Shown in pieces: positions 62,578 through 64,000 of a stretch of 64,000 nucleotides of DNA. The DNA lies in NCBI RefSeq assembly GCF_035989305.1, contig NZ_CP108514.1, positions 248,001 through 312,000 of the forward strand, written 5' to 3'. This DNA is from Streptomyces sp. NBC_01233 (GTDB lineage: Bacteria; Actinomycetota; Actinomycetes; Streptomycetales; Streptomycetaceae). The first letter of the stretch is position 1. Each line of letters starts with the position of its first letter. The notes under the pieces are model-generated. The model was not told the origin of the DNA. It searched no databases and was given only the letters and a program-made list of their open reading frames with translations. The translations under genes were made by a program, and so were the position numbers.

Positions 62578-62850
62578 GTGAAGCGAACCGTCCGTACCAC
62601 CTCCCGCGCCCTGGCCGTCCTCGCCGCCGGCACCATGCTCGGCCTGTTCGCCGCCGCCGCGCCCGCGGCCGCCGACTCGGGCCCGACCTACGTGTTCGTC
62701 GTCGGCAGCACCATCGTCCAGGTGGCCCAGGACGACGTCTTCAACGCCGGACGCGACAACACGGTCGGCTCCCACAACGGGGAGACCGCGGCCACGTCCG
62801 TCTCGGCCTTCGAGGCCATGCCGATGGCCGACTGGGCGGAAACGTTCTGA
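62578..62850 (+). CDS. small secreted protein
   Basis: The GTG start at 62578 has AAAGG 7 bases upstream. It encodes 90 residues: a signal peptide (1-34, ending APAAA) and a 55-residue mature part, DSGPTYVFVVGSTIVQVAQDDVFNAGRDNTVGSHNGE, which has no cysteine. The Gly/Asn-rich pattern is reminiscent of small streptomycete cell-surface proteins but not of chaplins, since the hydrophobic repeats are different. Function unknown. Confidence 0.6.
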   Translation: MKRTVRTTSRALAVLAAGTMLGLFAAAAPAAADSGPTYVFVVGSTIVQVAQDDVFNAGRDNTVGSHNGETAATSVSAFEAMPMADWAETF

Positions 62851-63115
62851 CCGACGGGACGACGGGTCCACGAAGCCCGAGGCCAGGGGCCGGCCGCTGT
62901 CCGGGCGGCCCCGTCCGCGGCCACAACGGCACCCTGGATTTCGTCAACTCAGCGCGAACTCGGCACCAACTCTTCGCGCCGCACGGCCCACTCAAAAGGT
63001 GCCCCAGACAACCGTGTTGTCCGACAGGTGAGTTACCAACAGGAAGTGATGGAACGTCGCACAGAGTTGCGGTACCTTCCTTCACGTCGCCGCCACACCC
63101 GGGGCACAGGGCCCC
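62851..63115. other. control region upstream of the cyclodipeptide synthase gene
   Basis: A less GC-rich stretch (about 62935-63090) lies upstream of the synthase gene and probably holds its promoter; TGT-N6-ACA around 63013-63024 is a weak dyad. A short open frame starts at GTG 63028 but overlaps the synthase start and shows no known protein. Nothing else is visible. Confidence 0.45.
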
Positions 63116-63856
63116 ATGGGACTTGCGGCGCAAAGGACCCGACACCTGTTGACGACAGCGACCGAAGTCTTCACAGTCCGGCCGTACACCCCGCACTGCC
63201 AGGTGATTAGCACCGAAGGCGACCATGCCGTCATAGGCATCTCGCCGGGGAACAGCTACTTCTCCGCCCAGCGCGTTCTCGACCTCGCCCAATGGGGGAT
63301 GCGCAACTTCGAGCAGGTCGACCTCATTTACACCGACCTGCACGTAGCGGAGATGTACGAGGCCCTCGGCTACGGCGAGGACGAGGCCCGACGCAAGGCG
63401 GTCAAGAATCTGCGCGGCGTTCGCGCCAAGGTGAACAACGCCGCCGCAGAAGCCGACCCCACCGGCACCCGCCTGCGCGCCCGGCCGATGTCCTCCCTCA
63501 CCGACATCCCGGCCTACCGCGCTCTGCACAGCCACCTGAACAGCCTGCTCGACAACGACCCGGAGTTCCGCAGGACCTGCAACTCCCTGGTCGACTCATT
63601 CCTCTCCTCCAAGGTCCTGGACGGGAAGTCCGCCACCACCCGGCAGCGCGAGGTGTGCCTCGAGTACGTCTGCGCCGAGGCGCCGCTCTTCCTCGACACG
63701 CCGGCCATCCTCGGCGTGCCGTCTTCGCTCAACTGCTACCACCAGCTCCTGCCGATGGCGGAACTGCTGTACTCCCGCGGTTCGGGTCTGCGCGCTTCGC
63801 GCAACCAGGGCCACGCCGTCATCACGCCCGTTGAAGGACACCCCGATGCCCACTGA
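63116..63856 (+). CDS. cyclodipeptide synthase, NYH subfamily (AlbC-like)
   Basis: The 246-residue protein is a tRNA-dependent cyclodipeptide synthase. The nucleophile Ser43 sits in [14 protein letters not shown], aligning with Ser37 of AlbC (HALIGISAGNSYFS); the NYH-subfamily Asn is Asn46. Tyr184 and Glu188 ([10 protein letters not shown]) match AlbC Tyr178 and Glu182, and Tyr208-His209 (NCYHQ) match Tyr202-His203. It takes two aminoacyl-tRNAs and makes a cyclic dipeptide (diketopiperazine). The two amino acids cannot be read from sequence by eye. A TTG at 63149 with AAAGGA upstream is an alternative start. Its stop lies 8 bases inside the P450 gene. Confidence 0.92.
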
Positions 63857-64000
63857 CACCCTGCTCGACTTCCCGTTCTCCGCGCGCGGCGACCAGCTCC
63901 CCCGTGAGATCGAGGAACTCCGCAGCGAGCCCGTGAAGCGGGTTCGCACGATAGCCGGCGACGAAGCCTGGCTCGTCTCCTCCTATGAACTGTGCAAGCT
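63846..64000 (+). CDS. cytochrome P450, 5' part
   Basis: The gene starts at ATG 63846, with GAAGGA 6 to 9 bases upstream, and overlaps the synthase end by 11 bases. The visible 51 residues ([20 protein letters not shown], then [25 protein letters not shown]) are the usual N-terminus of streptomycete CYP enzymes, with the beta-1 strands that precede the B helix. The haem part is outside the window. Placed behind a cyclodipeptide synthase it most likely oxidises, couples or dimerises the diketopiperazine. Confidence 0.85.

Follow-up and report, generated by a model that had tools for sequence, protein, structure and literature searches.

The right-hand end of the window analysed here, a 64,000-nt stretch (contig positions 248001-312000) of the 10.3 Mb genome of Streptomyces sp. 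NBC_01233, carries a cyclodipeptide synthase (CDPS) gene, the 5' part of an overlapping cytochrome P450 gene and, immediately upstream of the synthase gene, a short conserved element that we interpret as a leader RNA. These features are as follows:

63073..63078, + strand: TACCTT, probable -10 promoter element, inferred from a TAnnnT-type pattern
63084..63137, + strand: conserved leader RNA (model match 63080-63140), from conservation, covariation and model score
63088-63093/63125-63130, + strand: outer stem P1 of the leader, register unsettled, from covariation, with an alternative register by RNAalifold
63094-63099 opposite 63118-63124, + strand: internal loop of the leader, CACACC opposite GGGACUU, near-invariant across leaders
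63101-63105/63111-63115, + strand: inner hairpin P2 of the leader, from covariation
63132-63137, + strand: ribosome-binding site AAAGGA, directly after stem P1
63149..63856, + strand: cyclodipeptide synthase of cYY type, probable start TTG 63149, from family matches, pocket motifs and comparison of starts across relatives
63846..64000, + strand: 5' part of a GymB-like P450 gene that runs on beyond the window to 65030 in window numbering, from its identity to GymB1 (PDB 8q6z)

The synthase frame is open from 63116 to 63856 and encodes a member of the CDPS family (Pfam PF16715, 295 bits). The initial annotation had named six AlbC-type key residues, S43, N46, Y184, E188, Y208 and H209 when numbered from ATG 63116, and alignment to AlbC confirmed that they correspond exactly to S37, N40, Y178, E182, Y202 and H203, the set of catalytic residues by which NYH enzymes are recognised. 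The best PDB match is the cyclodipeptide synthetase 2x9q from M. tuberculosis, which we take to be Rv2275, and the NCBIfam model for cyclodityrosine synthase, NF052540, gives 430 bits at a cut-off of 300. A comparison of the pocket-lining residues with those of characterised NYH enzymes, as the annotation had proposed, was made with the P1 and P2 pocket positions and cYY motifs given in the accessible part of PMC5816076, and it returned cYY-type motifs in both pockets: the P1 pocket, VGITMLFN, is identical to a cYY motif listed there, and the P2 pocket, LSFSQLP, keeps L..QLP and the F and fits the cYY pattern. By these matches, the enzyme is an NYH cyclodipeptide synthase of the cYY (cyclodityrosine) group and, because the pocket motifs, the NCBIfam assignment and the 2x9q match all point that way, two tyrosines are, by homology, its likely substrates. 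Related loci were drawn from the best 80 of 107 relatives, and the nearest named relative found is Streptomyces sp. NRRL F-2580 (98% for the synthase).

The P450 ATG at 63846 overlaps the synthase stop codon (63854-63856) by 11 bases, as annotated, and an ATG with the same -11 overlap occurs in 32 of the best 80 of 107 related loci; a P450 gene adjoins the synthase gene in every one of these 80. The complete P450 has 394 aa, its last base lying at contig position 313030, and the haem cysteine is present, within FGGGQHYC and aligned to C345 of CYP121. It is identical to GymB1 at 340/392 residues (86.7%) and to CYP121 at 244/391 (62.4%). At a selected set of CYP121 positions, N85, F168, W182, A233, S237 and C345 are kept, whereas M62, N74, V78, F230, F280, T289, Q385 and R386 are changed, and the M-K that replaces Q385-R386 is found in all of the best 80 of 107 relatives as well. 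The initial annotation had also expected the cluster to continue past the window; instead, in the sequence to the right, the P450 gene is followed by a UvrA-like gene on the opposite strand (a match below the family cut-off), and among the best 80 of 107 related loci the flanks showed a UvrA-like piece of more than 150 aa in just 1. As this opposite-strand neighbour is rare at relatives, we take the operon to consist of two genes and reject a larger cluster, no wider one having been found. A CDPS gene followed by a GymB/CYP121-type P450 gene is the arrangement of the gym operons, and by these comparisons the gene pair is one of these already known two-gene operons.

According to the portion of PMC10092475 that was available, expression of six gym operons in S. 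albus yielded mycocyclosin and guatyromycines A and B. Because of these products and of the close identity of the P450 to GymB1, the pair described here would likely make, by homology, mycocyclosin together with purine-coupled cYY. The expectation of the initial annotation that such a pair gives cross-linked or nucleobase-coupled cyclodipeptides thus fits the closest characterised relatives, and the CDPS-P450 pair itself stands; the start codon that it had chosen is probably misplaced (see below), and a wider cluster was not found. The P450 could instead resemble CYP121 in making mycocyclosin only, with no nucleobase coupling. Its 62.4% identity to CYP121 and the six residues kept are in keeping with this; the 86.7% identity to GymB1, the two product types obtained from gym operons (PMC10092475, in the same portion) and the change from the Q385-R386 of CYP121 to M-K here and in all 80 relatives argue against it, and we regard it as unlikely. 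Compared with the Rv2275-Rv2276 (CYP121) mycocyclosin pathway of M. tuberculosis (accessible text of PMC7954767), the operon shares the 2x9q match of its synthase, the 62.4% identity of its P450 to CYP121 and the two-gene logic, and it differs in the M-K of its P450. Compared with the gym clusters of PMC10092475, the operon therefore shares the two-gene CDPS-P450 layout, the cYY pocket motifs and a GymB1-like P450, and it differs in that its products are predicted only and, as regards the leader RNA, in that the available portion of that paper makes no mention of one.

The synthase had been annotated from ATG 63116. This codon is ACG in five of the ten closest relatives (L010, L011, L013, L015 and L016), and L016 has a 1-nt deletion between the ATG site and a conserved TTG. 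Across the ten, some 65 bases upstream of the conserved TTG are near-perfectly conserved, and ATG 63116 falls within this RNA element and precedes the ribosome-binding site. We surveyed start codons in the 79 loci and the window, of which 72 of 80 entries could be placed (eight gave no frame by the pattern used). Downstream of the ribosome-binding site, the first start in frame was TTG in 61, GTG in 9 and ATG in 2, and an in-frame stop lay inside or after the conserved element in 15/72; an uninterrupted in-frame start inside the RNA was present in 8/72, the window included (6 ATG, 2 TTG), which counts against TTG 63149. Because of the ACG codons, the L016 deletion and the starts that follow the ribosome-binding site, we reject ATG 63116 and place the start probably at TTG 63149, which would give a protein of 235 aa with residue numbers 11 lower than those used above. 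That the upstream conservation instead reflects an N-terminal coding sequence read from ATG 63116 is scarcely credible: the frame is open to that codon in the window, and the eight entries with an in-frame start inside the element would suit such a reading, but it is contradicted by the ACG codons, the indel and the in-frame stops, and by the presence of this element ahead of LuxR genes and of synthases that differ in frame and start (see below). With TTG or GTG starts in 70/72 placed entries, annotations or clones that begin at an upstream ATG may count part of the RNA as coding sequence.

We then consider the element as RNA. In an alignment of 75 leaders (from 76 distinct ones; L009 and L015 left out, L053 placed by hand and L004 added), 93.4% of cells are paired in the structure compared with 87.7% in shuffles, 6 pairs are changed on both sides compared with 3.5, and covariation is 0.254 compared with 0.143. 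An alignment of 93 matches (94 loci given, no match in L086), which was fitted to the structure, gives 95.4% versus 88.3%, 7 pairs versus 4.4 and 0.323 versus 0.180, respectively, and when partners are slid by 1-3 columns in these 93 matches, pairing falls to 30-55%. P2 is 98.6-99.2% paired and has three pairs with changes on both sides, including G-C/A-U/U-A exchanges at one pair and a change from G-C to C-G at another in six sequences, which are LuxR leaders. The outer stem is set by RNAalifold in another register, columns 7-11 with 48-52, a choice that the sequence CGUCGUCGC, frequent in the 5' strand, allows. In the 75 leaders, the alternative register pairs helix 1 at 90.7% versus 88.7% and raises whole-structure covariation to 0.353 from 0.254; in the 93 matches, whose alignment was fitted to the register of P1 given above, it pairs 87.0% versus 92.7%, and it has fewer pairs changed on both sides in both alignments. 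Minimum-energy folds contain P1 in the register given above in 6/8 leaders and lack the structure in 2/8, both LuxR leaders, and single-sequence stability is clearly above that of shuffles in only 1/8. P2 is the secure part of the structure; P1 exists, and its register is less secure. Conserved stems with compensatory changes, by which structured cis-regulatory RNAs are recognised, are thus found here, clearly so for P2.

The strongest covariation lies outside the stems, at a non-Watson-Crick loop pair that is A-C in 71 sequences, G-A in 15 and A-A in 1; ranking by mutual information also puts pairs that do not belong to the structure (7-48, 22-41) high. G-U cells outnumber A-C/C-A cells by 47 to 13 over both stems and by 27 to 5 in P2, counts that are uncorrected for relatedness. 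An element just downstream of a promoter-like sequence (see below) and ahead of unrelated genes could also be a DNA operator or an element of the initially transcribed region, bound by a transcription factor, with stems that are merely an inverted repeat. The excess of G-U over its strand mirror A-C is unexpected for a DNA repeat, the loops are non-palindromic with one covarying loop pair, and the element ends at the ribosome-binding site, so we consider an operator very improbable. The compensatory changes, the G-U excess and the covarying loop pair support the reading of the upstream element as RNA.

The leader is present upstream of 79 of the best 80 of 107 related loci (L053 was placed by hand). 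In the own genome, covariance model R1 has strong matches of 73.1 and 62.6 bits, one before each of the two CDPS loci; a further match at C1:5048061 (24 bits) was taken as noise. Of 295 Streptomyces genomes, 79 had R1 matches, 94 in total. Among the CDPS matches listed, R1 was found no more than 400 nt upstream at 59/59 of those with at least 57% identity (cYY-like), at 20/21 of those with 40-50% identity (Trp-type) and at 0/36 of those below 40%. This cross-count is of match rows, some of them gene pieces or genes with a stop, takes the 295 genomes to be G000-G294 and leaves out the second halves of two split genes (G163:C321:38420-38752 and G332:C81:5877-6233); searches over more than 40 genomes were run with stricter filters. 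Leaders were also sorted into classes, of which YY includes L109, L111 and L116, with the downstream gene unchecked, and WW, assigned by hand, includes loci with a decayed synthase (L120-L123, L137 and L004). Fifteen R1 matches stand elsewhere: 3 before P450 sequence without an intact synthase (L120, L121, L122), 4 before neither gene intact (L123, L124, L126, L128; a P450 fragment lies 1.6 kb on in L124), 7 before a small LuxR/GerE gene and 1 weak match, L134 on G038:C2, which scored 31.8 and 31.3 bits in two runs and was taken as chance. At L121:4512-4572 (minus strand), the leader is kept and the synthase is unrecognisable, and an open P450 frame lies about 190 bases downstream.

Outside the genus, the leader is rare: an order-level sample (293 genomes) has it in two further genera of the same family, and of 396 genomes spanning the phylum only 4 had a leader match, all of them of the own genus. 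It accompanies cYY operons in Streptacidiphilus, Yinghuangia, Actinomadura and Longimycelium (L019, L028, L044, L049, L076), and the cYY locus of Nocardia ninae (L086) is without it, the best match there being 12.5 bits. Streptomyces sp. ISL-100 has at least three cYY-type CDPS loci (L020, L058, L081), each with a P450 gene and the leader RNA.

The second CDPS-P450 locus of the own genome lies on the minus strand at C1:6465284-6467340 (L004:10285-12341) and carries a copy of the leader RNA too. The synthase there is broken into two frames (matches C1:6466714-6467247 and 6466589-6466735); the P450 frame of the locus is open and has as best PDB matches 9o4d, entered as cytochrome P450 121, and PtmB. 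Relatives of this synthase have a Trp-type P1 pocket: in 20 loci, mostly of the 40-50% class, the P1 pocket reads LGVALFFA or LGVALFFS in 18 and LEVALFFS in 1, where the last catalytic residue is N, and is Tyr-like in L189. In the accessible part of PMC5816076, LGVALFFA and LGVALFFS are listed for Trp in the P1 pocket; these motifs specify only one of the two amino acids. Because of the Trp-type motif and the nearness of the L004 P450 to 9o4d and PtmB, we read operons of this type as putatively gut/ptm-type. Their start codon is GTG in 16/19 rows, not TTG (L176 left out, no start for L184, and L187 without a start near the ribosome-binding site). Set beside the gut/ptm clusters, which direct guanitrypmycins according to the available sections of PMC13122648, the locus described here shares the leader, present at the second locus of its own genome and at the 19 of 20 loci that, like it, have the gut/ptm look, and differs in having a Tyr-type rather than a Trp-type pocket and a TTG rather than a GTG start.

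The same leader also precedes a gene for a small LuxR/GerE protein of about 115 aa with one GerE domain (L125, L127, L129, L130, L131, L132, L133, L135, L138 and L139; L131 was assigned because its first codons are identical to those of L132). R1 was built on CDPS leaders only, and it found these unseen LuxR leaders at 35-47 bits. Of 28 LuxR matches in 199 genomes, the close relatives (E up to 1e-20) had the leader in 9/13 and the other 15 in 0/15; four of the nine leader-bearing genes were already in the R2 alignment. Genome G101 has three small LuxR genes, each with a leader match. A shared neighbourhood of the LuxR genes was looked for by eye in 12 loci and none was seen.

Searches of Rfam 15 (4227 families) gave no match over the leader at gathering level and none at E up to 10 in 62850-63300, where one chance-level miRNA model matched the other strand; the leaders of L121, L127, L132 and L139 likewise had none at E up to 5, with five weak matches elsewhere. 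We therefore reject a known riboswitch or T-box. In layout, the element resembles the translational riboswitches and protein-bound leaders among the Rfam 15 classes, a small conserved 5' structure that ends at the ribosome-binding site before unrelated genes, and it differs from them in matching none of the 4227 families. A description of the leader was not found in the literature on CDPS, guanitrypmycin or Streptomyces LuxR RNA regulation, of which subscription papers and preprints were mostly outside coverage, and the accessible text of PMC11610984 has none. The enzymes and the operon thus add one more example of a known and widespread pathway, and the leader RNA is an unlisted, unusual feature: a compact structured RNA, in 79/295 sampled Streptomyces genomes, associated with cyclodipeptide operons of two kinds and with an unrelated regulator.

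A TAnnnT-type match starts 5-8 bases before the start of the RNA model in 74/90 leaders, a raw count not set against chance (L109, L111 and L116 were left out of this survey), and a TTGACA- or TTGTCA-like sequence is often found before it at -35 spacing. As this match lies just before the RNA, the transcript should begin with the leader. A short upstream peptide encoded by GTGAGTTAC, with a Tyr codon, was considered as an attenuation leader and rejected, because its ends vary among relatives with one constant Tyr (by eye) and because the predicted transcription start lies downstream of it. A single base separates stem P1 from the ribosome-binding site, and the distance from that site to the start codon is near-constant, TTG 63149 sitting 11 nt past the site. 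A stem that abuts the ribosome-binding site, together with a weak start codon, indicates translational control, and the near-invariant internal loop suggests that something binds there. On these sequence features, the leader is probably a cis-regulatory RNA that controls translation of the gene pair.

The steps that we envisage are as follows. A folded RNA of about 55 nt, made up of P1, the internal loop CACACC/GGGACUU and the inner hairpin P2, would stand almost at the very 5' end of the transcript. A bound metabolite or protein would stabilise the internal loop, and P1 would then hinder 30S binding; on opening of P1, the synthase and the P450 would be made, the latter presumably under the same control as the synthase through the gene overlap. 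Repression on binding would be the simplest form of such gating. The synthase would join the tyrosyl groups of two tyrosyl-tRNAs into cyclo(Tyr-Tyr), which the P450 would cross-link to mycocyclosin, part of it probably being coupled to guanine or hypoxanthine. Taken whole, this account, a gym operon that converts cYY to mycocyclosin and purine adducts behind a translation-gating leader, seems to us quite probably right. Against it stand the alternative register of P1, the modest single-sequence folding results, the cYY locus of Nocardia ninae without the RNA, and the leaders that precede decayed or missing synthases. A competing view, to which we give a small but real chance, holds that the leader senses nothing and is a passive 5' stem whose role is mRNA stabilisation or help with expression. 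In its favour, the mRNA could be protected by a hairpin at its predicted 5' end, and the element serves unrelated genes; yet a passive stem has no need for the near-invariant loop CACACC/GGGAC or for the exchange of A-C to G-A in the loop.

A more specific form of the gating reading is speculative, with a modest chance of being correct: the leader may represent a new class of Streptomyces riboswitch, with the CACACC/GGGACUU loop as ligand pocket, which would also set the level of the orphan LuxR protein, and the two registers of P1 may be its switch states. Purines or a purine-derived signal are one guess for the ligand, because both kinds of leader-bearing CDPS-P450 operon encode enzyme types reported to couple guanine or hypoxanthine. 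The gut24283 cluster is described as silent under standard conditions in the available part of PMC13122648; a translational lock in the leader, if true, would be one possible reason for silent clusters and would guide their expression. Upstream of the RNA by about 50 bases, a stretch RTGAGTTAY, which most other leaders do not show in this form, is conserved in the window (63027-63035) and in L008-L017, and is possibly an activator site.
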